Positions 33,479-50,414 of a DNA stretch of 64,000 nucleotides are shown one piece after another (positions within the stretch are counted from its first letter, which is position 1; each line of letters starts with the position of its first letter). This DNA is from Moraxella caprae DSM 19149 (GTDB lineage: Bacteria; Pseudomonadota; Gammaproteobacteria; Pseudomonadales; Moraxellaceae): assembly GCF_000426885.1 (NCBI RefSeq), contig NZ_AUGF01000001.1, forward strand, positions 62,001-126,000, read 5' to 3'. The translations under genes and the position numbers were made by a program. The notes beneath the pieces are model-generated. The model saw only the letters and a program-made list of their open reading frames with translations, was not told the origin of the DNA and did not search any database.

Positions 33479-34507
33479 TTAATTCACCATCAAAATCACA
33501 AAAGCAGTCGCCAAAAGGTTTAGCAAGGTTACAGGTAAACACACTTTCCAGCCAAAATTCATCACTTGGTCATAACGTGGACGCATGAGCGAGCCACGAG
33601 CCAACACAAATAAGGTCATAAAAAACAAGGTCTTAATCAAAAACCAAAACACAGGCGGAACAAAGGGTAGGTCTAGGTTAAAAGGAGCAAGCCAACCCCC
33701 AAAAAACAAGCAGGTCATCAAGGCACTAATCACCACGACATTGACATATTCGCCAATAAAAAACATCCCAAATTTCATGCCTGAGTATTCCACATGATAC
33801 CCTTCAGCAAGCTCTTGCTCGGCTTCTGGTTGGTCAAAGGGGTGTCTGTGCGTAACCGCCACGCCTGCCACCACAAAGGTTAAAAAGCCTAAAAACTGCG
33901 GAATGACGTTCCAGACGGTTGTTTGAGCTTCAACAATCTCACGCAAATTAAACGAGCCTGCCATCGCCACCACGCCCATGAGCGATAAGCCCAAAAACAC
34001 CTCATAGCTAATCGTTTGAGCTGCCGAACGCAAACCGCCAAGCAACGAGAACTTATTGGCACTTGCCCAACCGCCAAACATAACGGCATACACAGCAAGC
34101 CCCGCCATGGCAAAAAAGAACAAAATGCCAATGTTCCAATCCGCCGCCCCAAGCGTGGGCGATAGCGGAACAATGGCAAAACTTGCCAAAGCGGTAAACA
34201 TGGCAATGGCAGGGGCGAGCGTAAACAGGCGTTTGTCGGCAAAGTTGGGTGTCCAGTCTTCTTTAAAAAAGATTTTTAGCATATCCGCTACCAGTTGTAG
34301 CGACCCTTGCCAACCGACCCTATTTGGACCATAGCGGTCTTGCCACAGGGCAAGCATACGCCGTTCATAGACAATCATCAGTGCCGCCGTAATGACTAGC
34401 CCCAAAAAGATAATCAAGGTCTGGGCGGTCATAAAAATAAGCGACCACCACTCAAACGACAAACCGCCAAGCCATGACGGCACATCAGGAATCACACGAA
34501 TACTCAT
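33479..34507 (-). CDS. nuoH: NADH-quinone oxidoreductase subunit H
   Basis: 342 aa membrane subunit at the quinone chamber, about 8 helices. [67 protein letters not shown] (conserved acidic loop) and [22 protein letters not shown] are diagnostic. It abuts nuoG and nuoI. Confidence 0.97.
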
Positions 34508-37500
34508 TTATGCCCCCACTTGCATTGCTAACGGTGCGTTATTAAACCCAGCTTTTGGTGTAAAGATATTTTCACGCTTGATATTAGCGAGATTTGCCAC
34601 ACTTTTTTGATATTCAGGCACATAGACAGGCGTGTCGGCTTCCGCCTTTTTGACGGTTGTCGGCACACCGACCATAAACGGCACAAGCCCGTCAGGATAG
34701 CCGATACAGCCGTCCGCCGCATAGTCCACCACGTCCACAGGCAGGGTAATCTCTATCCCATGCTGGGCAAGGGTTAGCTTATCGCCTGCCTTGATAATCC
34801 AACGCTTGGCGTCATCATCGCTGATTGTCCATGTGGCAGGCTTAATTTGGCTTGCCACCACAGGGCTACGGCTTGCCATGCGTGAGCTTGCAAATAGATT
34901 ATACACAGGCACAACGACCGCACGACCGTCAAAAATGCTCGTGCTTATCATGCTGTCAAGCTCGGCTTTGTCAAATACCGTCTCAACTTTTGGCAAGTCA
35001 TCAAACAGACGAATGCCGACATCTCCGCCTTTTAGCCGTCCGCCCACTTTGTCTTGGAGCTTGTTCCATGCTTGGGGCGAGTTCCAGCCTGCACTCCACG
35101 CAAATGGGATAAGGCTTGGGTCAGTCTTATCGCCCACATAGCCTTCCATGGAGAACGTCAAACCACTGTCCTTATCCTTAGGTTGCATGGGTTCGTGGAT
35201 AGAAATGGGCGAGCGTAACACCGTCCGCCCCGAATAACGGCGTGGCTCACGGGCGACTTTTAGCCCTGTAATGCGATAGTCCGACTCAGGGGCAACGTCT
35301 TTGATTTGGGCAAGGTGTGGATAATCGGTGATAAGCTCATCAATGACATCATCAAGATGATACCACGTTGGCTCATCATTGCCATTTGTCAAACTGGTGC
35401 CAATCAAGGCATTAGCGACAGCGTGTAGCCAACGCCAACTGTCTTTTAGCTCGCTGTTTGGCTCATAGTATTTTTTGTCAAAACTGGCAAAAAACCGCCC
35501 TGCTCGCCCTTCGGCAGACACAAGCGTGCCGTCGCTTTCTGCAAATGACGCACCAGATAGCACCGTGTCGGCTTTGGTGTGCCAGTCATAAGACTGGTGA
35601 TCTAGGACGATGAGTGTTTTTTCGGCCAATTTATCAAATTGGCTTGGGGCAAGGTTGGCTAAGTCATGTTCTAGCACCACCACCGCCTCAAATTCTTTTG
35701 CCAGCACTTCTTCTATCGCCTGTCCGCCAAGCAAGTTTACGCCCACGCTGTTCGCCTCTGGCATGGCAACGTACACGCCTGTTTTGTCGGCATATAGAGC
35801 ATTTATTTTTAATAAACGAGATGACAGCTCTTTTTCAAACTCATTGGGGTCTCGCTCTGTGGTGTGTGTGCCGTCCGTTTTGGCATCTTTATCAGGGTCA
35901 ATGAATTGACGAGCCACTTCATCACGGATTTTGGCGTTTTGCACTTCCACAAATTCACGCTCCACATGGGCGATTTTGGCACGTTTGGCGGTCAAGGTTT
36001 GGGCAATATAGCCTGTCGCTTGTACGATTGCTTTTGATGACAAGCTGGTGCCTGTGATGACAAGTGGACGGTTCGCCATAATCAAATCATAAGCGATATG
36101 ATGAGCCAAGAACTCCATTGCCATGTTCTCATCTATCACAAGATTTGGCTCTTGTTCTTTGGCAAAAATGGCGTTCTCACTTTTGCCAATCTCATCTAGC
36201 GTATCGGCATAGCCCTTGATGATGTCGCCCACCATAAAGCCCAGTTTGGCGATGTCGTTTGGCGTGGCAACGGCAGACACTTTGGCGATGTCGGACAGTT
36301 TGGTATCCACCACGCTCGCCACATAAATGGGACTGTACGCCTCTTGTCCGATACGCTTGACAGGCTCGGCAAGCCAATGCTCGGTTTTTAGGACGGTTGC
36401 CATTTGGCGGACTTTGTTTTTGGACGCTTGACGCACCGACAAGGCGACACGGCTTGCCGTTTGGGTCAAATCCTCACCCAACACAAACACGCTATCTGCC
36501 GTCTCAATCTCTGCCAAAGACACATTATGCACATCTTTGTGGCGTAACAGCGCCACGCCCAAATCCACCACGTCTTTAACGAGTGCTCGCTCGCCTGTGC
36601 TGTAATAATCGCCTCCCACGAGTTTTTTTAGGGCAAAATTACTCTCCAAACTTGCCCGAGCCGAACCAATGCCGATGACGTTTTTGCCTTTTAATAACTC
36701 CGCCACGCTATCGACCGCAAGGCTTGCACTGGTTTTGACAAATTGTCCGTTCACGTTTTGCACAGGCTGGGTTGGGCGATCGCTACGATTGACATAGCCA
36801 TAGCCAAAACGCCCACGGTCGCATAAGAAATAGCCGTTTACGTCATGGTTATAGCGGTTTTCAATACGTCTAAGTTCGCCATAACGCTCGCCTGCCGAGA
36901 TGTTACAACCGCTTGAACAGCCGTGGCAAATGCTTGGGGCGTATTGCATGTCCCATTTACGGTTGTAGCGGTCAGAGTGGGTTTTGTCGGTAAACACCCC
37001 TGTGGGGCAAACTTCGGTCAAGTTACCACTAAATTCACTCTGTAACTGTCCGCTCTCTTCACGCCCAAAATAGACACGGTTATTTGACGCATACACCCCA
37101 AAATCCGTGCCACCTGCGTAATCCTTATAAAACCGCACACAGCGATAGCAAGCGATACAGCGGTTCATTTCATGATTGATAAACGCTCCTAAGTCTTGGT
37201 TGTGGTGCGTGCGTTTGGTAAAGCGGTAACGGCGTTTTCTATGTCCGCTCATGTAGGTCATGTCTTGCAAATGGCAATGACCGCCCTCCTCACAAGTTGG
37301 GCAATCGTGGGGGTGGTTGGTCATCAAGTATTCCACAATGCTTTTGCGAAATGCCTTTGCCTCGGCATCGTCCACCGAAATCCAAGTGTCGCTTTTTGGC
37401 GTGGGGGCAATCATACAGCTCATGACCAACTTGCCACGTCCTGCCTGATAATCCTCCTCGCTCATGTACTGCTTGACCGCACATTGACGGCACGACCCCA

Positions 37501-37624
37501 CCGAACCCAAGGCAGGATGATAACAAAAATACGGCACGTCAATGCCAAGCGACAGACACGCCTGCAATAGGTTGTCCGAGCCGTCCACGTCATAAGTTTT
37601 ACCGTCTATATGAAGGATTGCCAT
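34508..37624 (-). CDS. nuoG: NADH-quinone oxidoreductase subunit G
   Basis: 1038 aa from MAILHIDGKTYDVDG (ATG 37624). It is the iron-sulfur hub of the peripheral arm. The N-terminal 2Fe-2S ferredoxin domain has CYHP, CRQC and a further Cys; the His-Cys segment HDCPTCEEGGHCHLQ and the 4Fe-4S segment CIACYRCVRF follow. The extra CHGCSSGC motif of the N7 type comes next, then a molybdopterin-oxidoreductase-like domain without cofactor. It is more than 100 residues longer than E. coli NuoG (908 aa); the extra length lies in the C-terminal half. Confidence 0.96.
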   Translation of the reverse strand: MAILHIDGKTYDVDGSDNLLQACLSLGIDVPYFCYHPALGSVGSCRQCAVKQYMSEEDYQAGRGKLVMSCMIAPTPKSDTWISVDDAEAKAFRKSIVEYLMTNHPHDCPTCEEGGHCHLQDMTYMSGHRKRRYRFTKRTHHNQDLGAFINHEMNRCIACYRCVRFYKDYAGGTDFGVYASNNRVYFGREESGQLQSEFSGNLTEVCPTGVFTDKTHSDRYNRKWDMQYAPSICHGCSSGCNISAGERYGELRRIENRYNHDVNGYFLCDRGRFGYGYVNRSDRPTQPVQNVNGQFVKTSASLAVDSVAELLKGKNVIGIGSARASLESNFALKKLVGGDYYSTGERALVKDVVDLGVALLRHKDVHNVSLAEIETADSVFVLGEDLTQTASRVALSVRQASKNKVRQMATVLKTEHWLAEPVKRIGQEAYSPIYVASVVDTKLSDIAKVSAVATPNDIAKLGFMVGDIIKGYADTLDEIGKSENAIFAKEQEPNLVIDENMAMEFLAHHIAYDLIMANRPLVITGTSLSSKAIVQATGYIAQTLTAKRAKIAHVEREFVEVQNAKIRDEVARQFIDPDKDAKTDGTHTTERDPNEFEKELSSRLLKINALYADKTGVYVAMPEANSVGVNLLGGQAIEEVLAKEFEAVVVLEHDLANLAPSQFDKLAEKTLIVLDHQSYDWHTKADTVLSGASFAESDGTLVSAEGRAGRFFASFDKKYYEPNSELKDSWRWLHAVANALIGTSLTNGNDEPTWYHLDDVIDELITDYPHLAQIKDVAPESDYRITGLKVAREPRRYSGRTVLRSPISIHEPMQPKDKDSGLTFSMEGYVGDKTDPSLIPFAWSAGWNSPQAWNKLQDKVGGRLKGGDVGIRLFDDLPKVETVFDKAELDSMISTSIFDGRAVVVPVYNLFASSRMASRSPVVASQIKPATWTISDDDAKRWIIKAGDKLTLAQHGIEITLPVDVVDYAADGCIGYPDGLVPFMVGVPTTVKKAEADTPVYVPEYQKSVANLANIKRENIFTPKAGFNNAPLAMQVGA

Positions 37625-37625
37625 G

Positions 37626-39044
37626 TTATGCCCCCACCTTGTTGTTTTGTGGCTCTGATTTGCCCACTTTTGCCTCAAATTCATGACGGAAATAACGTAA
37701 CGCACTCATGAGTGGCTCCATCGCCCCTGGGGCATGGGCACAAAAGGTCTTGCCAAGCCATAAATCTCGTGTCAGCTCGGACAATTTGTCAATGTCGTCC
37801 GCTTGCCCTTGTCCGTTCTCCATCGCATCAAGGATTTTTACGCCCCACGGCAAGCCATCACGGCAAGGGGTACACCAACCGCACGATTCTCTTTGAAAAA
37901 ACTGTTGCAAGTTTCTAGACAGGCTTACCATATCTTGCGTTTCGTCCACGACCATCATAAGACACGTCCCAAGGCGTGAGCCTGCCTTCATAATCGGGTC
38001 AAAATCCATGACAAGGTCAAGGTGTTCATCGCTTGCCGTCAAAAAGTCGGTACTCGCTCCGCCAGGTAGCCACGCCTTTAAGGTTAAGCCGTCCTGCATA
38101 CCGCCAGCAAGCTCAATCAGCTCACGAGCGGTATAGCCAAATGGCACTTCCCACAGCCCTGCGTCCTTGACACGACCGCTACACCCCATAATCTTAGTGC
38201 CAGGGGTAGTGGATTTGCCTTTGGCGTTTGGCAAGGATAAATACCACTCCACCCCATTTAACAAAATGGCAGGCATGTTGTTTAAGGTTTCAACGTTATT
38301 GACCACCGTTGGACGACCCCACGCCCCTGATACTTGGGGAAATGGCGGTTTGGTACGTGGGTTGGCACGGCGACCCTCCAAACAGTTGATAAGAGCCGTC
38401 TCCTCGCCACAAATGTACCGCCCTGCCCCTGTGTGGACATGCAATTCAAAGTTAAAATCCGTCCCCAAAATACCCTCGCCAAGCAAATTATTGGCGATAC
38501 ATTCGTTAATGGCGTTTTGTAAGCGTTCGGCGGCTAGGACATATTCGCCACGGATAAAGATATAGCCCACACTTGCCCCAATGGCATAGGCGGTAATGAG
38601 CATACCCTCAATAAGCTGAAACGGAATCCGCTCCATAAGCAGACGGTCTTTAAACGTACCCGGCTCCATCTCATCGGCATTACAAATCAAATAGCGTACG
38701 CCACCGTCTGGGGGCGTCATAAAGGTCCATTTTAGCCCTGCGTTAAAACCTGCCCCGCCACGCCCACGCACATTGGCGGTTTTTATCATCTCGCCTACCT
38801 CTCTTGGGTCTTTGGCTAGGGCGTTTTTTAGCCCGACAAAGCCGTCTAAGGCTTCATAATCTGCCAATGTCAGCACTGCATCATGATGATACAGTCGCCA
38901 TGTCAAAGGGTGCGTAAGCGAAGTCGGTGCTTGACCGTCCGCCAGTCCCACGCCCCAGATTGGCGTTTTTTGGCGATTTAGTTGGCTTGGGGCAAGTCCG
39001 TTTTTACGAGCATTGATTTGCTCGGCGACATTTGGTTTATTCAT
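37626..39044 (-). CDS. nuoF: NADH-quinone oxidoreductase subunit F
   Basis: 472 aa, NADH- and FMN-binding subunit. RGRGGAGFNAGLKWTF (nucleotide loop), CNADEMEPGTFKDR and GAGRYICGEETALINCLEG are FMN/NADH contacts, and ESCGWCTPCRDG holds cluster N3. It overlaps nuoE by 4 bp and precedes nuoG by one base. The first 40 residues, before the family core, are an extension. Confidence 0.97.
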   Translation of the reverse strand: MNKPNVAEQINARKNGLAPSQLNRQKTPIWGVGLADGQAPTSLTHPLTWRLYHHDAVLTLADYEALDGFVGLKNALAKDPREVGEMIKTANVRGRGGAGFNAGLKWTFMTPPDGGVRYLICNADEMEPGTFKDRLLMERIPFQLIEGMLITAYAIGASVGYIFIRGEYVLAAERLQNAINECIANNLLGEGILGTDFNFELHVHTGAGRYICGEETALINCLEGRRANPRTKPPFPQVSGAWGRPTVVNNVETLNNMPAILLNGVEWYLSLPNAKGKSTTPGTKIMGCSGRVKDAGLWEVPFGYTARELIELAGGMQDGLTLKAWLPGGASTDFLTASDEHLDLVMDFDPIMKAGSRLGTCLMMVVDETQDMVSLSRNLQQFFQRESCGWCTPCRDGLPWGVKILDAMENGQGQADDIDKLSELTRDLWLGKTFCAHAPGAMEPLMSALRYFRHEFEAKVGKSEPQNNKVGA

Positions 39045-39550
39045 GCGTATTGCTCCAACAATAGACCGACCTCAGACGGCAACACAGGTCCATAAGTATC
39101 CTCATCAATCAGCACGCTCGCCCCCTTATCGCAGTTGCCAAGACAGCAAATGGGAAGTAGGGTAAAACGACCATCTTTTGTGGTTTGCCCATAATCAATG
39201 CCAAGCTCACGCTTAAAAGCATCCGCCAATGCCTCATAGCCGTTCAGATAGCAAGCGATAGAATCGCAAATCAAAATCACATGGCGACCGACTGGCATCC
39301 GATAAATGCGGTTAAAAAATGTCGCCACGCCCTCCACGTCCGCCACAGGCATGGACAGCATATGGGCTATGGCAGCCACTTGGGCATCGTCCACCCAGCC
39401 GTTACGTTTTTGGACGAGTTTTAGGGCATCAAGCACCGCCGCCCTCGGTTGTGGGTAGTGATGAATGTGATGATGAATGCCGTCAATTTCTTGGGGTATT
39501 AAAATGGCGTGAATGTCCACTTTGGGGGTTTTGTCGGTTACTATTTTCAT
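39041..39550 (-). CDS. nuoE: NADH-quinone oxidoreductase subunit E
   Basis: 169 aa thioredoxin-like 2Fe-2S subunit (cluster N1a). The four Cys are visible in CDSIACYLNG and CLGNCDKGASV. It is the first gene of the contiguous nuoE-N block. Instead of nuoCD directly upstream, there is a 325-bp repeat-bearing gap, pilU and the microcin island, so nuoE-N must have its own promoter or depend on pilU read-through. Confidence 0.95.
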   Translation of the reverse strand: MKIVTDKTPKVDIHAILIPQEIDGIHHHIHHYPQPRAAVLDALKLVQKRNGWVDDAQVAAIAHMLSMPVADVEGVATFFNRIYRMPVGRHVILICDSIACYLNGYEALADAFKRELGIDYGQTTKDGRFTLLPICCLGNCDKGASVLIDEDTYGPVLPSEVGLLLEQYA

Positions 39551-39875
39551 AAAGTTACCTGTGCTAGCGTCAGCTTGCGGTTTTGGTTTTATTTATTAAA
39601 TTGATAAAACTAACTTAATTTTATCAGTTTAACAAATGGTTGATTTAAATTTTTTAGTGTATGATATACACCCTATTTTTACTTATTAATATTTTCAAAA
39701 TAGGGCAAGATACACCCAACCAACTTGATATTTACCACGGGTTTGTAGGGGTTGGCTCCGCACACCCTTTGATGATATTACTATACAAGGCGTGCTCAGC
39801 ACGCCCCTACGCCCACACATCATTGTATTTGAGTAATTTTAAAGTTTCTTGGGTGTATCCATACTTCTTCCTTAA
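39551..39875. repeat. Intergenic repeat, family C copy C2
   Basis: Bases 39724-39858 closely match 63807-63946: both begin CTTGATATTTACCACGGGTT and end AAAGTTTCTTGGGT. TGTAGGGGTTGGCTCCG on the left and CAGCACGCCCCTAC on the right are the imperfect inverted ends of the 70-80-bp core. No ORF is supported. Confidence 0.8.
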
Positions 39876-41087
39876 TCACCCCTTTTTATCATCAGCCTTT
39901 TCGACATCAGCGTGAAGTGATAACGAGCTTGCCACTTCATTTTGTCCGTCACGGCGAGTACCTTTGAGTTTGATTTGTAAGCGTAGCTCATTGGGCGAGT
40001 CGGCATTACGAATCGCTTCATCGTACGAGATAGCCCCTTCATCATATAAGTCAAACAACGCTTGGTCAAAGGTCTGCATACCCACTTCACGGCTTTTGGT
40101 CATAATCGCTTTTAACTCGTGCATTTCACCCTTTAAAATCAAATCTGCCACAAGGCGGGTGTTAAGCATGATCTCCACCGCCGCCCGCCGCCCCTTGCCG
40201 TCTTCGGTACGGATTAGGCGTTGGGAAATAATCGCTTTCATATTGCTGGACAAATCCATCAATAACTGCTGACGGCGTTCTTCTGGGAAAAAGTTGATGA
40301 TACGGTCAAGCGTTTGGTTGGCGTTGTTGGCGTGGAGCGTACCTAGGCACAAATGCCCCGTCTCGGCAAAGGCAATGGCGTGCTCCATGGTCTCGGTATC
40401 TCGTATCTCGCCAATCAAAATCACATCAGGGGCTTGCCTTAGCGTGTTTTTTAGAGCGTGGTGCCATGAGTGCGTATCCACGCCCACTTCACGGTGTGTA
40501 ATCATCGATTTTTTGTGCTTATGCACATATTCCACAGGGTCTTCCACCGTGATGATATGCCCTGCACTGTTTTCGTTACGATAATCAATCATCGCCGCCA
40601 AGCTCGTGGACTTACCAGAACCTGTACCACCCACGACCAGCACCAAACCCCGCTTTTCCATGATGACATCACGCAGTTGGGGCGGCAATCTTAATTTGTC
40701 AAAATTGGGAATCTCGGCAGCGATAACCCGAATCACCATACCAACCTGTTGCTGTTGGATAAAAACATTGACACGAAAACGACTCACATTTGGCACGTTA
40801 ATGGCAAAGTTACATTCCATTTCACGTTCAAATTCATCACGCTGATAGTCATTCATGATACTGTATGCAAACAGTTTGGTTTTGTCAGCACTTAATACCT
40901 GCTTGCCAAGCGGTTTCATCAAGCCTTGGTGTTTGACGCTCGGCGGAAATTCTGCCGTGATAAATAAATCCGATGCCCCAATCTCAACAACTTTGGTGAG
41001 CATATTATACATCATACCTTTGGCTTCGTTTAGGGTTTCTTCGGCAAATCGCATTAGCGATTCTTCGGAAATATGGTGTGTAGTCAT
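39876..41087 (-). CDS. pilU: Type IV pilus retraction ATPase PilU (PilT family)
   Basis: 403 aa from MTTHHISEES. The N-terminal PAS-like domain precedes a RecA-like core with Walker A GGTGSGKST, the Asp box ITVEDPVEYVHKHK, Walker B PDVILIGEIRDTETM and the His box TGHLCLGTLHANNANQTLDRI. NFFPEERRQQLLMDLSSNMKAIISQRL is more PilU- than PilT-like, as is the long charged C-terminal tail. It powers pilus retraction together with PilT and supports twitching and DNA uptake, which fits the comEC gene at 10.8 kb. pilT is not adjacent here. Confidence 0.9.
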   Translation of the reverse strand: MTTHHISEESLMRFAEETLNEAKGMMYNMLTKVVEIGASDLFITAEFPPSVKHQGLMKPLGKQVLSADKTKLFAYSIMNDYQRDEFEREMECNFAINVPNVSRFRVNVFIQQQQVGMVIRVIAAEIPNFDKLRLPPQLRDVIMEKRGLVLVVGGTGSGKSTSLAAMIDYRNENSAGHIITVEDPVEYVHKHKKSMITHREVGVDTHSWHHALKNTLRQAPDVILIGEIRDTETMEHAIAFAETGHLCLGTLHANNANQTLDRIINFFPEERRQQLLMDLSSNMKAIISQRLIRTEDGKGRRAAVEIMLNTRLVADLILKGEMHELKAIMTKSREVGMQTFDQALFDLYDEGAISYDEAIRNADSPNELRLQIKLKGTRRDGQNEVASSLSLHADVEKADDKKG

Positions 41088-41149
41088 AGATTGTTCTCTG
41101 TTTGATAACAAAATCATCTAAAAAGTGCTATTTTTTAAATAAAAATCGC

Positions 41150-41179
41150 TTGACATGTTTTTTTTTGATAAAATATAAT
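41150..41179 (+). promoter_or_regulatory. Near-consensus sigma70 promoter of the microcin operon
   Basis: TTGACA (41150-41155), 18-bp spacer, TATAAT (41174-41179). The expected start is near 41186, giving a leader of about 50 nt before mccA1. Confidence 0.8.
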
Positions 41180-41192
41180 GAGAATTATTATA
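41174..41192 (+). promoter_or_regulatory. Candidate Fur box over the -10 element of the microcin promoter
   Basis: TATAATGAGAATTATTATA agrees with the 19-bp Fur consensus GATAATGATAATCATTATC at 15 of 19 positions and is itself nearly palindromic. Placed over the -10 box and start site, Fur-Fe would block transcription, so the operon may be switched on by iron shortage. The AT-rich background makes chance matches easier. Confidence 0.5.
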
Positions 41193-41200
41193 TTTTTCAA

Positions 41201-41220
41201 TTCAGTTCAGTTCAGTTCAG
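41201..41220 (+). repeat. Pentanucleotide tandem repeat (TTCAG)x4 in the mccA1 leader
   Basis: Four exact TTCAG units, directly preceding the ribosome-binding region of mccA1 (AAGGAG at 41226) and downstream of the predicted start site. Confidence 0.9.
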
Positions 41221-41237
41221 CAAATAAGGAGATCGTA

Positions 41238-41261
41238 ATGATTGCTATGGCTCATAACTAA
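41238..41261 (+). CDS. mccA: Microcin C-type precursor heptapeptide MIAMAHN, copy 1
   Basis: A seven-codon gene reading MIAMAHN and stop, with AAGGAG 6 nt before the ATG. Microcin C precursors are classically heptapeptides ending in Asn (E. coli MRTGNAN); the C-terminal Asn is converted by MccB into a phosphoramidate-linked adenylated isoasparagine/Asp. Length, terminal Asn, strong Shine-Dalgarno, position upstream of an MccB- and an MccC-like gene, and an exact second copy 265 bp downstream make this call strong. Apart from its first Met and last Asn the peptide differs from MRTGNAN at nearly every position (only Ala6 against E. coli Ala6 differs by one place), so the middle is not informative. 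It is too short for ORF finders. Confidence 0.88.
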   Translation: MIAMAHN

Positions 41262-41284
41262 TATATTTGTTCTTCTCATTAGAG

Positions 41285-41454
41285 TTCTTGCAAAATTCAA
41301 AAATTTTGGCTTACAAACATTGATTTTATTGGATTTAGAATTTTGACAAGCTTAATAAAATCGTAATTTCGCAAGAAGTCTATTGAACCGTCTAAAATAT
41401 CGTGGAGAAGGTTTGATGGCTATGCCATCAGTGCCAGATATGCGGATATTTTAG
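41285..41454 (+). promoter_or_regulatory. Structured RNA region between mccA1 and mccA2
   Basis: CTTGCAAAATTC (41287-41298) pairs with GAATTTTG-A-CAAG (41338-41350), a 12-bp stem with one bulged A. Further on CTAAAATATC (41392-41401) pairs perfectly with GATATTTTAG (41445-41454), enclosing a 7-bp hairpin TGATGGC-TAT-GCCATCA (41414-41430). None is followed by a good T run, so these look more like barriers to RNA decay or partial terminators than plain terminators. Confidence 0.6.
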
Positions 41455-41502
41455 TACAGTTTGTCATGTATTACAACCCAAAAATAAATAAGGAGATCGT
41501 CA

Positions 41503-41526
41503 TGATTGCTATGGCTCATAACTAAT
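41503..41526 (+). CDS. mccA: Microcin C-type precursor heptapeptide MIAMAHN, copy 2
   Basis: Identical in nucleotide sequence to copy 1 over all eight codons. The 16 bases before the ATG, including AAGGAG (41491-41496), match copy 1 at all but one position. The following TTCTTGCAAA (41539-41548) also recurs after copy 1 (41285), so a unit of about 265 bp seems to have been duplicated and has since drifted, except at the precursor and its ribosome-binding site. Selection on exactly the translated part supports real expression. A second identical precursor gene should raise peptide output. Confidence 0.88.
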
Positions 41527-41539
41527 TAAACTATATTTC

Positions 41540-41585
41540 TTGCAAATTATAAGGTAATGTTATTTATAAAACCACCTTAGCAAGT
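41540..41585 (+). promoter_or_regulatory. Hairpin after mccA2
   Basis: CTTGC (41540-41544) with GCAAG (41581-41585) and TAAGGT (41551-41556) with ACCTTA (41575-41580) form a two-part stem 14 nt after the mccA2 stop. No T run follows. Confidence 0.5.
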
Positions 41586-41768
41586 TGAAATTAAAATTTA
41601 TGGTTAATTAAACTCAAAAGACATCATGTTACGATTTTTGATCATGGTAAATTTGTTGAACCACCAACAAAAAACTATTCCGCCCTTCAAGCAAACTTAG
41701 GGTGAACGGTTCTGATGACTTTTGAAGTTAAATTACTATAAATATATGTCGTATTATCTCTCAATAAG

Positions 41769-41798
41769 CACTCTCTAACAATATTTTGTTGGAGAGTG
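41769..41798 (+). promoter_or_regulatory. Strong hairpin before mccB
   Basis: CACTCTCTAACA (41769-41780) pairs with TGTTGGAGAGTG (41787-41798) over 12 positions with one T-G pair and a 6-nt loop. It stands 42 nt before mccB. In the E. coli mcc operon a hairpin between mccA and mccB limits read-through and leaves abundant short mccA RNA; this may do the same. Confidence 0.6.
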
Positions 41799-41840
41799 TC
41801 AATATCAATCATTCATATATTATTAAGGATACAAAGTAGA

Positions 41841-42884
41841 ATGTTATATCAGACAGCTCATTATGCAAGTGTAGGAACATACCAAGATTTCGGCATTATT
41901 GGCGTTGGATCTAAACAAATGCTGATAAAAGATAGAGAGCTATGGGAAAACGTAGCCATCATTTTGCATGAATGGCTTTCACCCAACACAAAAGATGACA
42001 TAGAAAAAATAGTAAGCTCTAAAAATTATTTTCACCATCAGAAAAACCAAGAAGCATTTGATATCATTTATGATAATCATTTAATTATGGTTTATGATGT
42101 ATTTAAATTAAATGATAGGTATAGTAGAAATTTTTTATATTTTAATCACGAAGGAGCCGATCCCATTTTAGTACAAGAAAAACTCAAAAATTCATCTGTA
42201 ACCATTATTGGTTGTGGCGGTATTGGCAACCACATATCATCAGTATTAGCAACTGCTGGTGTTGGTCATATTCATTTGGTTGATAGTGACATCATAGAGA
42301 CAAGCAATCTGACTAGACAGGTTTTGTTTAGTGAAAAAGACATTCAACAACTAAAAACGGAAGTTTTATATAGAGAACTAACCAAAAGAAATTCAGAAAT
42401 AAAAATCACCACTCAAAATATAAATATCCAATCAGAATATGATGTTTTCAAATTAGAACCATCTGATTTATATATTTTATCAGCAGACAGTCCAAATGAC
42501 ATCATAAATTGGGTTAATACCGCTTGCATTCAAAAACAACAAGCTTATATCAACGTGGGATATATCAATGACATATCTATATTTGGACCTTTTTATATTC
42601 CCAAACACACAGCCTGTTTCAATTGCACTCAGTACACACCCAATAACACAAAACGAGACCCTTTTTATCAAATCATTAAAGATATTGAGAACAATTTTAG
42701 ACCCGCCACCTATGCCCCTGTTAATGGTGTTGCATCAATGTTAGCAGTTGGCGATATTTTACGTTATTTGGGTGGATTTGGAGAAATTTTATCCAAAAAT
42801 AAAAGGATAGGCATGCACTTTAACAGCCTAAAAATAGAAGAGCAAATTTTCCATATTAATAAGGATTGTTTATGTCAAAAATAA
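41841..42884 (+). CDS. mccB: MccB-like peptide adenylyltransferase (ThiF/E1 fold)
   Basis: 347 aa, almost the length of E. coli MccB (350). The ATG at 41841 has AAGGA upstream; the frame can be read from a GTG at 41796 but that lies inside a hairpin. An N-terminal peptide-clamp-like region (1-105) precedes the Rossmann adenylation domain: GCGGIGN (124-130), DSD (148-150), NLTRQ (156-160) and an Asp at 216 in LSADSP, the E1-family catalytic position. Zinc ligands are Cys259-Cys262 (CFNC) and Cys343-Cys345 near the C-terminus. The predicted reaction uses two ATP to turn the terminal Asn of MIAMAHN into a succinimide and then a P-N linked AMP. Plain ThiF or MoeB would lack the N-terminal domain and the heptapeptide neighbours. 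Confidence 0.88.
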   Translation: MLYQTAHYASVGTYQDFGIIGVGSKQMLIKDRELWENVAIILHEWLSPNTKDDIEKIVSSKNYFHHQKNQEAFDIIYDNHLIMVYDVFKLNDRYSRNFLYFNHEGADPILVQEKLKNSSVTIIGCGGIGNHISSVLATAGVGHIHLVDSDIIETSNLTRQVLFSEKDIQQLKTEVLYRELTKRNSEIKITTQNINIQSEYDVFKLEPSDLYILSADSPNDIINWVNTACIQKQQAYINVGYINDISIFGPFYIPKHTACFNCTQYTPNNTKRDPFYQIIKDIENNFRPATYAPVNGVASMLAVGDILRYLGGFGEILSKNKRIGMHFNSLKIEEQIFHINKDCLCQK

Positions 42885-44083
42885 CTAACATACCAAATAT
42901 ATTACGAACTATCATTTTTTATGGCGTGGCTTTTGGTAGTTTTCGCATGCTTGTTGGAGGTGTTTCTGTTTTATATCTAATTGGTAAAGGTTTAAATTTA
43001 ACCGACATAGGTCTATTAAAGTCATTTCAATTTGGGCTAATGATGATTATTGACCTACCTCTTTCTTATATTGCCGATAGATACAGTCGCAAATTATCTA
43101 CTATATTAGGAGTATTATTTGGTTCCTTATGGTTGTTAACAACAGCTTTTTCTTCTGAAATTTGGCAATTTTATGTTGCAGAAACTTTTAATGCAATATC
43201 ATTATCTCTATTTAATGGTGCTTACATATCATATTTAATTGATACGAAAAATAAACTATATAAAAATATTGATAATAAAACTATATTATCATATGAAAAC
43301 AAATATAACAGTTTAGGTATGGCATTATGTGCTTTTATTGGTGCCAGCTTTTTAAAACCAACATCAAATACGATTTGGATTATTGCTGGTGTATTATTGT
43401 TAATAATTTGTGCAGGATCTTTTTTACAACTTCCTAGCGACACACAGAATGACATACATGATAGAGGTAAACAAAAAATTATAAACAATACATTAAGTAT
43501 AAAAGAAAATGTCAATCATTTATTATCCATCATTACAGAAAAAATAGAGATATTTTATGGAATATTAATAACTTCTATTTTACTAATCTATTTTCAGATT
43601 ATATTGCAACTATGGCAACCTATTATCAAAGATTTTAATCCAAGCGATTTAGGTTGGCTTTATGGTATGTTTTTTTCTATTGTTTCTATGGCTCAATTAC
43701 TTTCTAGCTATATTGTTGATAAGAATATAAAAAATAAACACACATATATCATTGTTTGTATATTCATTTCATTGATAATTATGTTATTATCCAATATACT
43801 TTTTCAACAATCAATAGCTGGTACATTATTGATAATAATTTCTTTATTTATGATGTTTTTTAGCATTAAGTTTTTAATGATAGAAATATCCGCAAGATTT
43901 CATGATATAGTACCAAATAATCACCGATCATTTCTTGATAGTATGGGGTTTTTTATTAGTCGCACCATTCTATTGCTCATATTTCCAATCATCACTTACC
44001 TAATACAAAGTGTTGGTTTTATATCACTACCTTTTATCCTTCTTGTGTTGATAGTGATATATATCAATCAATCATCGTTTTAA
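42872..44083 (+). CDS. mccC: MccC-like MFS exporter of the microcin
   Basis: 403 aa, equal to E. coli MccC (404) in size. The ATG at 42872 has AAGGA 6 nt upstream and lies 13 bp inside mccB, so the two are translationally coupled. About 12 membrane helices are predicted, with an MFS motif A-like loop between helices 2 and 3 (DLPLSYIADRYSRK) and a long hydrophilic central loop near 190-215. In microcin C systems this pump exports the product and gives partial self-immunity. It is very AT-rich, like mccB. It ends 35 bp from the convergent nuoCD stop with no clear terminator. Confidence 0.85.
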   Translation: MSKITNIPNILRTIIFYGVAFGSFRMLVGGVSVLYLIGKGLNLTDIGLLKSFQFGLMMIIDLPLSYIADRYSRKLSTILGVLFGSLWLLTTAFSSEIWQFYVAETFNAISLSLFNGAYISYLIDTKNKLYKNIDNKTILSYENKYNSLGMALCAFIGASFLKPTSNTIWIIAGVLLLIICAGSFLQLPSDTQNDIHDRGKQKIINNTLSIKENVNHLLSIITEKIEIFYGILITSILLIYFQIILQLWQPIIKDFNPSDLGWLYGMFFSIVSMAQLLSSYIVDKNIKNKHTYIIVCIFISLIIMLLSNILFQQSIAGTLLIIISLFMMFFSIKFLMIEISARFHDIVPNNHRSFLDSMGFFISRTILLLIFPIITYLIQSVGFISLPFILLVLIVIYINQSSF

Positions 44084-44118
44084 AAACAATGCTTAACCCA
44101 ACAAAACCATATTATTAT

Positions 44119-45867
44119 TTACCTATCACAATCCGCCATAACAATATCAATACTTGCCAAGTAAATAATCGCATCGGATACCAGCGAGCCATTGATAACC
44201 GAAGGCATTTGTTGCAAATGGGCAAAGGTAGGCGTGCGAATGCGAGTGCGGTAGCTCATCGTGCTATTATCGGACACCACATAATAGCTGTTTAGTCCCT
44301 TGACCCCTTCCACCATACAGGCACTCTCACCTTGTGGCATGACAGGTCCCCACGACACCGAGATAAAGTGGTTAATAAGCGTTTCAATGTCTTTAAGTGT
44401 TTTGTCTTTTGGCGGTGGCACGGCAAGCGGATGTTCGGCCTTATATGCCCCTGACGGCATATTATTTAAGCACTGCTCAATAATCCGTAGAGACTGGCGA
44501 ATCTCTTCAATTTTGACCAAACATCTGTCATAGGCATCACCGTTATAAAACACAGGAATTTCAAAGTCAAAATTCTCATAGCCCAAATAGGGGCGAGCTT
44601 TTCGCAAATCAAACTCAATGCCCGTGGCACGAAGCCCCGCCCCTGTTACCCCCCACGCTAGGGCTTGTTTGGCATCGTATTGGGCAACGGCTTGCGTGCG
44701 TCCTTTTAGCACGGTGTTGGTCATCGTTGCCTTATAGTATTCATCAAGGCGTTTTGGCATCCAATCCAAAAACTCACGCACCAGTCGCTCCCAACCATTT
44801 GGCAAATCGTGAGCCGTACCGCCAATTCTAAACCACGCAGGGTGCATCCGATAGCCCGTTACCGCCTCAATGACATCATACGCCTTTTGACGGTCGGCAA
44901 ACATATAAAACACAGGGGTCATACCGCCAGCATCTTGGATAAATGTCCCCCAGTACAAAAGGTTATTGGTAATCCTAAACAATTCACTCATCATAATGCG
45001 AATGGTGTTAGCTCGGTCTGGCACACTGATGCCTGCCAATTTTTCCACCGCCATGATATAGGGTAACTCATTCATCACCCCACCCAGATAATCAATGCGG
45101 TCGGTATAAGGAATGAACGAATGCCAAGTTTGGCGTTCCGCCATTTTTTCCGCTCCTCGGTGATGATAGCCAATGTCGGGGATACAGTCCACAATCTCTT
45201 CGCCATCAAGCTGTAACACCAAGCGAAACGCCCCGTGTGCGGACGGGTGGTTGGGACCGATGTTCAAAAACATAAAATCTTCATCACGCCCAGAGCGTTT
45301 CATTCCCCATTCTTCTGGCACAAAGCGTAAGTTTTCTTGTTCAAACTGCTGTTTAGCAGAGTTTAGGAAATACGGCGTAAACTCAGTCGCCCGAGCGTGG
45401 TACTCTTTACGCAGTGGGTGTCCTTCCCAGTATTTAGGCAATAAAATCCGTGTCAGGTGCGGATGACCGTCAAACACCACGCCAAACATATCCCACACTT
45501 CTCGCTCATACCAGTTGGCATTGGGGTAAATTTGCGTGGCGGACGGAATGCTCTCGCCTTCGGCTAGGGCAACTTTAATGCGAATGTCGGAGTTTCGCTC
45601 CAAACTCATCAGATGATAAAACACGGTAAAATCAGACTCAGGTTGCCCATAGCGATGTTTTCGCAGGCGTTCGTCAATGGCGGACAAATCCACGAGCATC
45701 ACAAAGGGCTTGGGCAATTTACGCAAATACAGCAATAAATCAAGCACTTGGGCTTTATCCACCCACACAGTCGGGATGCCGTCTGCGGTCTCTTGGACGG
45801 TCAGCCCTGTAAATTGGGCGTTTAATTCGGTTAAAATCTCAAAATCGTGAATGTGGTGAATGCTCAT
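44119..45867 (-). CDS. nuoCD: NADH-quinone oxidoreductase fused subunits C and D
   Basis: 582 aa fusion, as in E. coli. The C part (about 1-180) has [32 protein letters not shown]. The D part begins at [26 protein letters not shown], which lines the quinone site, and ends with DIVMADCDR as the family does. It is not linked to nuoB or nuoE: the AurF/TauE/GGCT genes lie on one side and the microcin island on the other. A 247-bp region upstream must hold its own promoter. Confidence 0.97.
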
Positions 45868-46123
45868 AATACCAACTGTTTATAATATGTTTGTTAAATT
45901 GGTCGCTTGCGTGGGGCTTGCAGTCTCCAAACACTTTAACTAAATGGCAAATTATAACGCAAAATCGCTTTTTTTACAGCATATTTATGATAGATTACGA
46001 GAAAAATTGAATGATAAACCATTGTGAGATATAAATTTATTTTATAATTGATGGCTAAATCTTGACAATAAATACTTTATTTGATATAAAATTGAGGAAT
46101 TTCTTAGGTTAAGGATGTACCCG

Positions 46124-47011
46124 ATGAAAACCGTAGCAGATGTGCAAACTATCTTGAAAAAACTATCAAAATACTGGCAACAGAATGCAACTGTACATAC
46201 TTTTGATGGTGATTATGATGATATTGAATTCTTTGCCGATAAAAAAGACTTTGCTGAATGTCTATTGCCTTTTGCCAACCATGATGCTTGGCTAAATGCA
46301 CCACAGCCCAAAAAAGATGCTTGCTTGTCTTATGCTTGGATTCTGTATAACATGAAAACAGTCTATATAGAATGTGATGTTGTTACGCCAGCATGCGAGA
46401 ATATCTTAAAATATCCCCCCAATACAGAAAATTTGGCAGATGTGCAAAAAGTCATCGCCGAAGCATTGCTTGATGAAGCATTGCACACCAAGATGTCTAT
46501 TGGTGCGTGCAACTATATTTACCAAAAACGAAATTTACCTCACTTAGGCGAGAATAATTTTTACCTTTCACAATGATAAACAAGATACTAAACAAACAAC
46601 TTGATGAAAAAAAATAGAAGGTTGGTGCAATTTGCAGTGGTGTGTGCTAGTGAAACACTAATTGCTGACTATCTAGACATTCTATCCAAGGATAATACCA
46701 TTCAAAATATCTGCTATGAAGTTACCAAGAGACACGCCCTTGATGAGCGTAGTCATTCTGGTGTATTTAGCCATGTCGCCTTGGAAGTGCTAAAAAATGA
46801 AAGCAAAGAAACTAGAACGCTATTCATTAATACTCTAAAATCTACCGTACCTTTATTTGCACATACTGAAATGAAAGAATGGGAAAAAATCTTTGGAATA
46901 CTTAACTTTCCTAATTATCAAGAAATATTAAGAGACACGGATACATTAAAAAATATTGGTATTTATGATAACTCAGTCAATAAACTGTTACTAAGATTGG
47001 GGGCAATGTGA
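46124..47011 (+). pseudogene. Broken AurF-type diiron oxygenase
   Basis: Two ORFs in the same frame (46124-46576 and 46604-47011) are separated by stops but together carry all seven iron ligands of AurF (p-aminobenzoate N-oxygenase family). Part 1 has E83 (YIECD), E118 and H121 (DEALHTKM), with the E-35-E spacing of AurF. Part 2 has E17 (CASETL), then H44, E48 and H51 (RHALDERSH), with the 27-residue spacing of AurF. The missing linker is readable in another frame from the ATG at 46573 as MINKILNKQLDEK, and ends at a run of eight A (46607-46614). One lost base near 46573 and one gained A restore a single protein of about 296 aa. The stop overlaps the next gene's ATG. Confidence 0.78.
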
Positions 47012-47775
47012 TGGAATTACTTGGTCTTAGCATAGATATTGTTGTCTTTTTATTAATAGGTTCTTGTATTGCAGGCTTTATTGACGCGATTTGTGGGGGT
47101 GGCGGTCTTATTTCTATTCCTGTATTATTAACCGCAGGATTTAGCCCCGCACAGGCGATTGCCGCCAATAAGTTACAAGGAACAGTAGGAGCAATTGCCT
47201 CCACCCAATATTATTTAAACAAAGGTGTATTAGATAAAAAATTACTCATTGCTTTATTGCCTCCTGCTATAATTGGCGGTGCAATTGGGACTGCCACTTT
47301 ATCTTTGTTACCTAGTACACTCCTTGAAAAAATTCTCCCTTTTTTGTTAATTGCAATGGCTTTATATTTTTATTTCTCCAAGAATTTGTCAGATACCACA
47401 AAGAAAGCAAAGATGGGTGTATTTCTGTTTTCTTGGACAATTATCCCTGTTATTGCTTTTTATGACGGATTTTTTGGAGCAGGTGCAGGTACTTTTTACC
47501 TACTTGCAGTAACTTCTTTACTAGGTTTTGCCGCTACCAAAGCAATGGCATATTCAAGAGTACTTAACCTAGCCAGCAACCTAATTTCCTTGCTTGTCTT
47601 TATTTATTTAGGCAAGATGGCGTGGATGGCAGGTATTTTAATGGCAATTGGCGAAACAATTGGAGTATATCTAGGTAGTCATTTAGTTGTAAAAAATGGT
47701 GCAAAACTTATGCGTCCTTTGGTGGTTATTGCCTGCGTGCTAATGGCAATTAAATTACTATGGTCATCATCTTGA
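47011..47775 (+). CDS. TauE/SafE-family membrane exporter (TSUP)
   Basis: 254 aa from the ATG at 47011, which shares a base with the stop of the AurF-like gene. About 8 membrane helices in two halves. The family signatures are GFIDAICGGGGLISIPVLLTAGF with PAQAIAANKLQG in the first half and FYDGFFGAGAGTFYLLA with GFAATKAMAYSRVLNLASN in the second. Members move sulfite, sulfoacetate or related organic anions. It is tied by overlap to the broken oxygenase gene, so the two once formed an operon. Confidence 0.88.
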   Translation: MELLGLSIDIVVFLLIGSCIAGFIDAICGGGGLISIPVLLTAGFSPAQAIAANKLQGTVGAIASTQYYLNKGVLDKKLLIALLPPAIIGGAIGTATLSLLPSTLLEKILPFLLIAMALYFYFSKNLSDTTKKAKMGVFLFSWTIIPVIAFYDGFFGAGAGTFYLLAVTSLLGFAATKAMAYSRVLNLASNLISLLVFIYLGKMAWMAGILMAIGETIGVYLGSHLVVKNGAKLMRPLVVIACVLMAIKLLWSSS

Positions 47776-47876
47776 TTTCAAGGCAAATAAGTCCACAAGC
47801 ATTACTTAGGTAATATTCTCAGAAGTCTCAGTTGATTTGGTGCGTATTACGCACCTTGCTTTTTAAATGTCGTTTA

Positions 47877-48254
47877 TCACACTTGCCTAAAACTTTTAAT
47901 TTCCTTATCCGCCAATGCATAAACATAAGCGGTTACGCTCTCACCCGTCTCTAAATATGCCGTAATGATAACACGGTCATAGCCTTCCCCTTCAAAGTCA
48001 TCAAGCTTGTCCCAATGGTTTGTCATCTCATCGGACGTAAAAATAAAGCCTTGCACCTTTTGTCCGTCATCGGCAGGGATAAGAGCAGGATAACCCAATG
48101 ACGCCCCAAAGCCATTTGGCAAAAGCTCGCCAAAAGCATAAGCCGATACCCATTCGCCACCTACAATCGGTGTCATGATGTGATGATTGGGGCGGTTTGG
48201 GGAAAGCGTGCCATAAACAAAAAGGGCGTTTGGGATTGGTATTTTATTTTCCAT
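47877..48254 (-). CDS. Gamma-glutamylcyclotransferase-like protein (YtfP/GGACT type)
   Basis: 125 aa. FVYGTLSPNRPNHH is the BtrG/YtfP-type YGTL nucleotide, and the conserved Glu is in LDDFEGEGYDRV. Such enzymes release 5-oxoproline from gamma-glutamyl amines or peptides; the substrate here is unknown. It lies 21 bp after nuoB on the same strand, so it is probably transcribed with nuoB though unrelated to complex I. Confidence 0.85.
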   Translation of the reverse strand: MENKIPIPNALFVYGTLSPNRPNHHIMTPIVGGEWVSAYAFGELLPNGFGASLGYPALIPADDGQKVQGFIFTSDEMTNHWDKLDDFEGEGYDRVIITAYLETGESVTAYVYALADKEIKSFRQV

Positions 48255-48275
48255 TTTTGATAAATTTATTGAACT

Positions 48276-48944
48276 TTAAAACGCATCATCAGGACTTCTT
48301 AAATTCTTAACCGTAATCCGCTCGCTATTTTTTCTATCCCGTTCTGGGGTCATAATCGGCTGATAAATGTTTTGGTCAAGATGAATGCCAAGCGGACGGC
48401 GTTCTTTTTGAATGCTCTCTTGCAAAAGCATAATCGCCTGAATCAAGGCTTCTGGACGGGGCGGACAGCCGGGGATATAGACATCCACAGGGATAATCTT
48501 ATCCACGCCCTGCACCACCGAATAAATGTCGTACATACCGCCCGAGTTGGCACATGCCCCCATTGAGATAACCCATTTGGGTTCTAGCATTTGCTCGTAC
48601 AGTCGTAGTATGACAGGTGCCATCTTAACAAAACAAGTCCCCGCCACAATCATCACATCGGCTTGGCGTGGCGACGCTCGAATGACTTCCGCCCCAAAAC
48701 GAGACAAATCGTGTACGCCTGTCAAAGTCGTGGCGTATTCCACATAACAACAGCTCGTGCCAAAGTTAAACGGCCACAAAGAATGCTTGCGTCCCCAGTT
48801 GGCGGCGGCGTGGGCGAGATTTTCAAGACTGCCCAAAAAGACATTTTTTTCAACTTCCGCCTGCGTGATGTCGTCCACCACTTGACGAGTGGTGTGGGGA
48901 TAGGTATTGGCGTTTTCGTTGGGGCGGGTTAGGGTGTATTTCAT
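48276..48944 (-). CDS. nuoB: NADH-quinone oxidoreductase subunit B
   Basis: 222 aa, holds cluster N2 which reduces quinone. The ligands are visible in [13 protein letters not shown] (Cys-Cys), [12 protein letters not shown] and [13 protein letters not shown]. It stands apart from nuoA (a hypothetical gene intervenes) and from nuoCD. Upstream, 49 bp after the start, the DNA becomes AT-rich. Confidence 0.97.
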
Positions 48945-49069
48945 AGTTGTCTGCTTGTTTTTTAAAACTGGCGTTTATAGGAAATTAAATTTAATACTAG
49001 GTGTAAACTTTTTTGATAATCGCAAACACTTTTTTTTAAATTTGAGATTAAATATTTTAAAGTTAAAAA

Positions 49070-49783
49070 CTAACTCCAATCAAATTTTTCAAAAACTTGA
49101 TTGTTTTTGCGGTCAATATACAACTTGATTTCATCTTCGCCACTTTGTATATAATTATAACCACAAACCTTACCAATCAATTCATTACTGCGATTGGTTG
49201 CAGATTTATCGCTTAATTTGCCAATGGTTGATTTTCTTTCATATTCTTTGGGATTGAATTTATCCAAATCACCATAAATACCATCCAAATAAACAGAGCC
49301 TTGAATAAAATGCCCTGTTTTTAAATACATTTCTTTGGTTACCCAATAATTGATAAGACTTCTTATATAATGATAATAGCCAAAATCAATTTTCTCTCGT
49401 CTTTGACATTGTATGGCAAAGTTAGAGTTTTCGGCATCTTGCCAAGACTTTAAAAGACAATATTCATCTTTAAATTGAATATATTCTTGCACCGCTTCAT
49501 CGTACCATTTTGGAATATCATCAATACTTTCAATGCTGGATAAATCCCCTTTAAAATGATAGCGTTCACCGTCCCATTCAAAACGAATATTGTCATAATC
49601 AAATAAAGTAGTATTATGATAGATTAGTTCAGGATTACCATTACCAAAAACCGATACAAAATGGACTTTACCTCTATTCTTGTTCAATGTTTCCAAATCC
49701 ACTGTCAATAATGGAAAAAATACCATTTTGTGAATGTCATCAGCTTGATAAAAAACATCATCAAAGTTTGGGAAAAGTTTCAT
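49070..49783 (-). CDS. Unknown protein lodged between nuoA and nuoB
   Basis: 237 aa, not recognised. No signal peptide or membrane helix; it is rich in aromatic and charged residues (FPNFDDVFYQADDIHKMVFFPLL, IRFEWDGERYHFKGDLSSIESIDDIPKWYDEA). SMI1/KNR4- or immunity-like proteins share such composition, but no motif allows a claim. It lies 25 bp after nuoA on the same strand, is AT-richer than its neighbours and interrupts the normal nuoA-nuoB order. Confidence 0.7.
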   Translation of the reverse strand: MKLFPNFDDVFYQADDIHKMVFFPLLTVDLETLNKNRGKVHFVSVFGNGNPELIYHNTTLFDYDNIRFEWDGERYHFKGDLSSIESIDDIPKWYDEAVQEYIQFKDEYCLLKSWQDAENSNFAIQCQRREKIDFGYYHYIRSLINYWVTKEMYLKTGHFIQGSVYLDGIYGDLDKFNPKEYERKSTIGKLSDKSATNRSNELIGKVCGYNYIQSGEDEIKLYIDRKNNQVFEKFDWS

Positions 49784-49808
49784 TTTATATCCTTATAATT
49801 AATAATTC

Positions 49809-50414
49809 TCAATCAAACTTCTGCGTGGTAACTCGTCCTGTGTCATTGATATGGTCAATATTTGCCATGTCAGTTTTGTCTTTTTCAAGCACCGCTTGCA
49901 AGTCTTTACGCCCTGCAAAAATCTTGCCAGACAACTGGGCAGGCACTTTGCCTGTGGGGTCGGTATGCAACTCATCAATCGTGGTAAAGGCGGTAATGCT
50001 CGCCAAATCAAAATCGGCAGGACGCTCATAGATACGCTTTTTCTTGGCACGTTTATCAGCAGGAGCCCAGTTCATCGCCCCAAGTTTCATCTCATAAACA
50101 AGCCCCACAAACAAAATGGCGATAAAGACAAAGGCGGTCGCAAACCCTACCCAGCCCACTTCTCGCACGCTGACCGAATAGGCGTACAAATACAAGGCTT
50201 CTAAGTCAAAAATCACAAAGAAAATCGCCACCAAGTAAAACTTGGCGGACAAATGGATACGAGCCGTCCCTGCTGAGACCACCCCTGCTTCAAAGTTTTC
50301 TTGTTTTTGAGAACCGCTTGAGTGCCCACCAAGCAAGCGTGGCACGACAAGCATAAAGACGACAAGCCCTAGACTGGCAAGTAAATAGACAATGGCTGAC
50401 CATTCGGCTGGCAT
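49809..50414 (-). CDS. nuoA: NADH-quinone oxidoreductase subunit A
   Basis: 201 aa, three membrane helices. ENFEAGVVSAGTARIHLSAKFYLVAIFFVIFDLEALYLYAYSV holds the conserved loop and the DLE helix. The C-terminal 75 residues form a charged extension (MNWAPADKRAKKKRIYERPADFDLAS) beyond the E. coli protein (147 aa). It is the first nuo gene, preceded by a 190-bp gap after purL. Confidence 0.95.
   Translation of the reverse strand: MPAEWSAIVYLLASLGLVVFMLVVPRLLGGHSSGSQKQENFEAGVVSAGTARIHLSAKFYLVAIFFVIFDLEALYLYAYSVSVREVGWVGFATAFVFIAILFVGLVYEMKLGAMNWAPADKRAKKKRIYERPADFDLASITAFTTIDELHTDPTGKVPAQLSGKIFAGRKDLQAVLEKDKTDMANIDHINDTGRVTTQKFD

Follow-up and report, generated by a model that had tools for sequence, protein, structure and literature searches.

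Two identical mccA minigenes and MITE-like repeats in the leader of a microcin C-like operon of Moraxella caprae

Why would a microcin C-like operon carry its seven-codon precursor gene twice, in identical form? The question is raised by a 64,000-nucleotide stretch of the Moraxella caprae DSM 19149 genome (contig NZ_AUGF01000001.1, positions 62,001 to 126,000), which we call the window and in whose coordinates positions are given unless stated otherwise. Two forward-strand genes of 24 nt, each running from ATG to TAA and encoding MIAMAHN, lie at 41238-41261 (copy 1) and 41502-41525 (copy 2), with 264 nt from start to start. A first-pass annotation of this DNA had described the two genes as identical, and all 24 nucleotides do agree; its start for copy 1 stands, while the start that it gave for copy 2 (41503) was off by one. 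Each gene follows a 16-nt ribosome-binding region on the same strand (41222-41237 and 41486-41501) in which AAGGAG lies 6 nt 5' of the ATG. The two regions agree at 15 of 16 positions, the single difference having been recognized earlier, and five of the six bases between AAGGAG and ATG are common to both copies. The result is a 41-nt direct repeat (41222-41262 and 41486-41526, 40/41 identical) that extends from 16 nt 5' of the ATG through one base 3' of the stop codon. Outside it, ungapped identity is about that expected by chance (13/44 upstream and 20/67 downstream). A search of the whole genome (2.6 Mb in 103 contigs) allowing up to three mismatches found exactly two copies of the MIAMAHN gene, whereas a reversed control pattern had no match in the same genome; viral contigs, searched with a pattern of the mccA region, gave no match either. 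Usual sequencing reads are longer than the 41-nt repeat, whose two copies also have different flanks, so an assembly artefact is an unlikely source of the second copy.

Microcin C-like operons encode MccB, which couples a nucleotide to the precursor peptide; the product, once processed, inhibits aspartyl-tRNA synthetase. The gene downstream of the two copies (41841-42884, forward strand) encodes a 347-residue protein of the ThiF fold (Pfam ThiF) whose best match in the PDB is E. coli MccB (3h5n, E = 4.6e-88, residues 3-337, 335 residues). The top PDB matches (3h5n, 6om4 and 3h5a) had E values of about 5e-88, and the next was ThiF at 7.9e-16. There was no MccB model among the NCBIfam families matched, and ThiF/MoeB models scored far below their cut-offs. 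Residues Cys259, Cys262, Cys343, Cys345, Arg159, Lys172 and Asp216 were invariant in an alignment of four MccB sequences, and we class the protein as an MccB-type ThiF-fold peptide adenylyltransferase rather than a generic ThiF/MoeB protein. Its best matches on plasmids came from E. coli and two Salmonella plasmids (41-42% identity over 97%). Beside mccB on the same strand lies mccC (42866-44083; the listed open reading frame starts with TTG, and an ATG occurs at 42872), which encodes an MFS protein (Pfam MFS_1) and by its presence there supplies a candidate export pump. It is 24% identical to the product of the MFS gene behind E. coli mccB (318 aligned columns, E = 1e-14). No S66 (MccF-type) peptidase was matched in the M. 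caprae genome, and such matches occurred in 6 of 14 control genomes.

By a published definition, mccA encodes a short precursor, usually of 7 residues with Met first and Asn last, has a strong Shine-Dalgarno sequence and lies near mccB (PMC6495379). MIAMAHN answers this description twice, having seven residues, the two expected ends, an AAGGAG before each copy and mccB close by. This agrees with the earlier assignment of both genes as mccA, given the MccB homology and two good Shine-Dalgarno sites. In the five best-scoring relatives of MccB among the matches listed, which come from M. oculi, Dickeya and three Photorhabdus, MccA begins with MIA or MIS, supporting MIAMAHN as the true substrate. 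Judged by its testable sequence features, the locus is a microcin C-like mcc operon.

The operon occupies a variable junction within the nuo genes. Five relatives have pilU but lack mcc here. Their similarity to the window breaks off within or immediately before the start of pilU (41032 to 41103) and is regained where nuoCD ends (44116 to 44123), so the space between is taken up by the mcc operon. Across the genus, 18 of 22 genomes gave a match for the interval from nuoCD to nuoF, whose length, counting nuoE, varies between about 550 and 6891 bp, implying that the junction often carries cargo. In the window too, unrelated cargo interrupts the nuo operon (33479-50414). Of the 16 nuoCD-nuoF intervals retrieved (L170-L185), 5 contained pilU and several contained other open reading frames. 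Two adjacent frames at 46115-47011 match two parts of the Pfam family of AurF-like N-oxygenases and are probably a broken gene.

A close relative is found in Moraxella oculi Tifton1, whose mcc operon also lies between nuoCD and nuoE, with MccB 76% and MccC 73% identical to ours. It differs in having a single mccA (MIAAVRN) and neither of the two dispersed repeats described below, which had no match in the M. oculi genome. Beside this operon, M. oculi pilU (L033, 11292-12101) is matched only in separate pieces and looks degraded, whereas pilU in the window is a full open reading frame; MFS-like and ATP-grasp-like genes were seen by inspection between nuoB and nuoCD of M. oculi (L033, 4385-6797). 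Another Moraxella genome (G001) has a separate mcc-like locus elsewhere (L034, 2255-4605) with the peptide MLGRSHN, a strong hairpin, an mccB broken by stops into two frames and then a 402-residue frame that is MFS-like by inspection. A third (G004) carries at the same nuoE-nuoCD junction an mccC-like MFS gene that is 55% identical (L180, 894-2150). That stretch had no mccB match, the genome gave only generic ThiF matches to MccB, and no mccA was visible by eye just upstream. The apparently orphan gene may be a remnant, or it may confer resistance as a pump in its own right.

Among described systems, the operon of E. coli plasmid MccC7-H22 shares with that of M. caprae a seven-codon mccA, a strong Shine-Dalgarno sequence, a hairpin, and the order of mccB and the MFS gene, and the two MccB proteins are 41% identical. 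The E. coli operon has one mccA (MRTGNAN), whose stop codon lies 74 nt from mccB compared to 315 nt here. It also has a gene for a SAM-dependent methyltransferase after the MFS gene, whereas the Moraxella operon shows only two mccA genes, mccB and mccC. In E. coli the methyltransferase gene is named mccD, and the operon has the further genes mccE and mccF. The Helicobacter pylori plasmid HPP12 has a similarly minimal operon, annotated as mccA-mccB-mccC, with a heptapeptide and a small hairpin behind mccA (interval fold z = -1.70), but with one mccA (MKLSYRN) and an MccB only 30% identical. Two precursor genes in one mcc-like cluster, mccA1 and mccA2, are reported for Hyalangium minutum in the accessible part of PMC7157772, where they encode two unlike peptides of 36 and 46 residues, each with its own MccB. 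In contrast, the Moraxella operon has two identical heptapeptides and one MccB.

To gauge how unusual the doubling is, we compiled a census of mcc loci. A scan of named genomes with a single MccB query returned nothing, whereas a query built from the four-sequence alignment gave 207 confirmed matches, 80 of which were listed. We examined 48 of these (the first 43 and five lower ones), leaving out 32 lower or partial matches, and added the E. coli and H. pylori plasmids to reach 50 loci; a Lactobacillus plantarum plasmid locus (L037) and a ThiF-like locus of genome G314 (L128) were not counted. The first rule yielded an mccA candidate in 21 of the 50, and those of L084 and L087 were dropped for their odd distance to mccB, as was a TTG-started second candidate in L088 that encodes a different peptide at -568. 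Rechecking 17 of the 29 loci without a candidate under a laxer rule led us to accept seven more, though not the longer candidates in L057 (19 residues) and L079 (22 residues). The final tally was 26 loci with an accepted mccA, 2 doubtful and 22 with none, the last including 13 from Nocardiopsis, only three of which were rechecked. Adding the Moraxella locus of G001 to the 26 gave 27 other operons with an identified mccA.

None of these 27 operons had a second near copy (a match with at most 25% mismatch on either strand), and none encoded its peptide a second time, anywhere in the DNA covered, which reached 430 to 3910 nt upstream; the test is blind to a second mccA of quite different sequence. 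The earlier remark that known mcc operons usually have one mccA is consistent with this count. In a test independent of the mccA calls, a 30-nt direct repeat with up to four mismatches occurred within 800 nt upstream of mccB in 1 of the 50 loci (L084), where the best pair lacked an ATG; one locus (L078), with 68 nt upstream, was too short to count. The distance from stop codon to mccB was 50-126 nt in the 27 other operons, as compared to the 315 nt that follow copy 2. Judging from these sequences, the doubled identical mccA with MITE-like repeats appears to be a new variant among microcin C-like operons. Our literature search found Hyalangium minutum as the only mcc cluster with two precursors (as far as the accessible part of PMC7157772 goes), although Table S1 of PMC6495379 might list a doubled mccA. 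The available portion of PMC10686094 mentions no doubled mccA genes, no text containing the peptides MIAMAHN, MIAAVRN, MISIASN or MLGRSHN was found, and titles and abstract openings revealed no publication on a Moraxella mcc operon.

The DNA around the copies turned out to be composite. The 240 bp between them had been described as otherwise diverged, yet about 109 bp of it (41278-41386, forward strand, edges uncertain by about 3 nt) belong to a dispersed repeat with terminal inverted repeats, and this part was consequently never homologous between the copies. Repeat 1 has 14 matches in 9 of the 22 genomes of the genus, four of them in this genome and two of them short (44 and 23 nt). Aligned copies have common ends and different flanks, except for two pairs (L131/L132 and L139/L140), each of which seems to represent one site shared by two species. 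A second repeat of about 143 bp with ends of the TATAG/TATGG type (41599-41741, forward strand, edges approximate) separates copy 2 from mccB and has 44 matches, many partial, in 7 of the 22 genomes. Many aligned repeat copies have TA at their ends, a candidate target-site duplication that could also belong to the ends themselves. Bacterial MITEs and Correia-like repeats are short and dispersed, with terminal inverted repeats and strong RNA folding, and MITEAba12 is said to be a MITE of the Moraxellaceae. Repeats 1 and 2 are likewise short and dispersed with common, inverted ends and fold strongly, a likeness in general features. The leader is therefore a patchwork in which the first mccA and repeat 1 are followed by a hairpin, the second mccA, repeat 2, another hairpin and mccB.

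The sequence TTCTTGCAAA is present after the stop codon of each copy, as reported in the first-pass annotation. When the sequences were shuffled, a match of at least 10 nt common to the 40 nt next to each stop appeared in 1 of 1000 trials, and one located anywhere in the two intervals in 35 of 200. We considered and rejected a shared regulatory motif: alignment of the repeat copies places the occurrence after copy 1 at the left end of repeat 1, as its left terminal repeat. This end mostly reads TTCTTGCGAA in the other aligned copies, none of which has the exact ten letters. The occurrence after copy 2 could be either chance or a degenerate element end.

The first-pass annotation had explained the pair by an old duplication, after which selection spared only the Shine-Dalgarno sequence and the peptide from divergence. 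In favor of this history, the repeat breaks off sharply close to functional boundaries, and its flanks agree about as well as chance predicts. Yet all six synonymous choices agree between the copies. If codons were drawn independently, such agreement would have a probability of 0.0045 given the usage in 12 window genes, or 0.015 with mccBC codon usage and the stop codon omitted. This speaks against an old duplication with selection on the peptide alone, as does the agreement of five of the six bases between AAGGAG and ATG, and the roughly 109 bp of flank that are a dispersed repeat rather than diverged sequence. We hence consider an old duplication very improbable. The synonymous identity points, with moderate strength, to recency, to conversion or to selection acting on the RNA as such. 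Most likely, copy 2 originated in a short, fairly recent duplication, or else conversion or selection on the RNA of the ribosome-binding region kept it identical. By eye, the leader of copy 2 resembled that of M. oculi mccA, a candidate relationship that we rejected after alignment against shuffles (z = -0.2, or -0.8 with the last 20 nt removed). Upstream alignments of copy 2 with G001 (z = 3.2) and of copy 1 with copy 2 (z = 2.1) lost their signals (z = -0.3 and -0.0) upon removing the last 20 nt with the Shine-Dalgarno sequence, so neither copy can be assigned as ancestral. Downstream of both copies, there was no significant alignment with M. oculi or G001.

Copy 2 may also be a short, recent and neutral duplication with no selected effect, in which case one copy will decay. 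Perfect identity down to synonymous sites fits such recency, as do the single mccA of M. oculi and the lack of a second near copy in the 27 other operons; and the doubling, known from one genome of the species, might be a transient polymorphism. Against neutrality, the repeat ends near the Shine-Dalgarno region and the stop codon, which would be rare for a random segment, both ribosome-binding regions are intact, and the dispersed repeat between the copies suggests that some time may have passed. We regard this explanation as unlikely, albeit a genuine contender. Copy 1 might instead be compensatory, if repeat 2 broke a short mccA-hairpin-mccB layout and a second mccA restored precursor supply. 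The long interval between copy 2 and mccB, whose excess includes the approximately 143 bp of repeat 2, favors this idea. However, about 172 nt would remain without repeat 2, still more than in the other operons, and copy 1 too has a repeat behind it. We find compensation quite improbable.

The leader also contains several predicted RNA structures. A strong hairpin is predicted 3' of copy 1 (41385-41462, forward strand, -27.6 kcal/mol; z = -3.84 for 41385-41465), a weak and non-significant one after copy 2 (41539-41584, forward strand, -9.2 kcal/mol, z = -0.88) with its left arm inside TTCTTGCAAA, and a 14-pair hairpin before mccB (41768-41799, forward strand, -20.8 kcal/mol; z = -7.32 for 41762-41806). 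The last is likely the usual mccA-mccB hairpin, as modeled folding suggests. Repeats 1 and 2 themselves fold well (z = -2.69 and -3.76), so the strong folding of the leader is partly theirs. A structured mccA-mccB interval is common among mcc operons: the fold z was -2 or lower in 19 of 26 operons (L082 was not folded) and no better than -2 in the other seven, including two from Bartonella with positive z. For M. oculi, z was -1.74 over the whole interval and -4.10 over its first 73 nt. A terminator scan found no classical terminators at the locus (0.5 expected), and the E. coli mccA-mccB hairpin is also without a clear T-run. Rfam at gathering thresholds gave nothing at the locus and one tRNA in the whole window. 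A repeat search detected no similarity in sequence between the main hairpins, so duplication of a module of mccA plus hairpin is not shown by homology.

In E. coli, according to the available portion of PMC6495379, a ribosome on mccA induces termination at the hairpin before mccB, leading to a large excess of MccA. With a ribosome-binding site for each copy and hairpins after copy 1 and before mccB, the M. caprae leader may by analogy act as two ribosome-controlled terminators in series. A putative consequence of the doubled mccA, which we consider plausible, is a higher ratio of precursor to enzyme. The extra hairpin may matter more for this ratio than gene dosage does, because the excess in E. 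coli comes from ribosome-induced termination.

Upstream of copy 1, a sigma-70 promoter of the operon is predicted at 41150-41179 (forward strand) from its match to consensus, with TTGACA, an 18-nt spacer and TATAAT (12/12). The region held 11 promoter-like sites, whereas shuffled sequence gave 5.4 (sd 2.0); apart from the predicted promoter, all ten were weaker and matched consensus at 9 or 10 of 12 positions. The spacer contains a run of nine T (41158-41166, forward strand), the sole homopolymer of at least 9 nt in the 64 kb; simulation gives 4.2 such runs, so the run in itself is no enrichment. Just 5' of the copy 1 ribosome-binding region lies (TTCAG)x4 (41201-41220, forward strand), the sole pentamer repeat of at least four units in the window, with none in 30 simulated windows; Tandem Repeats Finder reported 5.0 copies at 41196-41220. 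Together, the two tracts suggest possible phase variation of the mcc operon. Another simple sequence repeat, AAGGCGT x4, is found at 57275-57302.

The reading that we prefer, with confidence only slightly on the side of belief, is a minimal mccA-mccA-mccB-mccC operon with a doubled minigene and a two-step leader. One transcript from the consensus promoter (41150-41179) would carry two genes, each translated independently into formyl-MIAMAHN, to whose C-terminal asparagine MccB would join a nucleotide, and the MFS protein would export the product as a Trojan-horse inhibitor. On the E. coli model, the ribosome occupying an mccA would promote termination at the hairpin behind that gene. Two termination steps in series would yield short RNAs rich in mccA and would lower read-through into mccB multiplicatively, while each full transcript would still contain two precursor units. 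The MITE-like repeats would have spread the leader apart. A more elaborate version, in which the two ribosome-trapping minigenes and the hairpin downstream of each form a two-stage ribosome-controlled attenuator that sets precursor far above enzyme, slippage in the T9 and TTCAG tracts switches the operon, and MITE-like insertions helped to build the spacing, strikes us as doubtful speculation.

The effect of these findings on the wider field would be small, because clusters for other peptide antibiotics often contain their precursor gene more than once, and the doubling here is known from sequence. For the genus, they describe mcc operons in Moraxella and one species with an apparent orphan mccC exporter. 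For microcin C it matters that precursor exceeds enzyme, which E. coli achieves with a single mccA through ribosome-controlled termination, according to the available portion of PMC6495379. A natural operon with two identical mccA genes in series would make it easy to ask which of the two, copy number or termination, determines this ratio.
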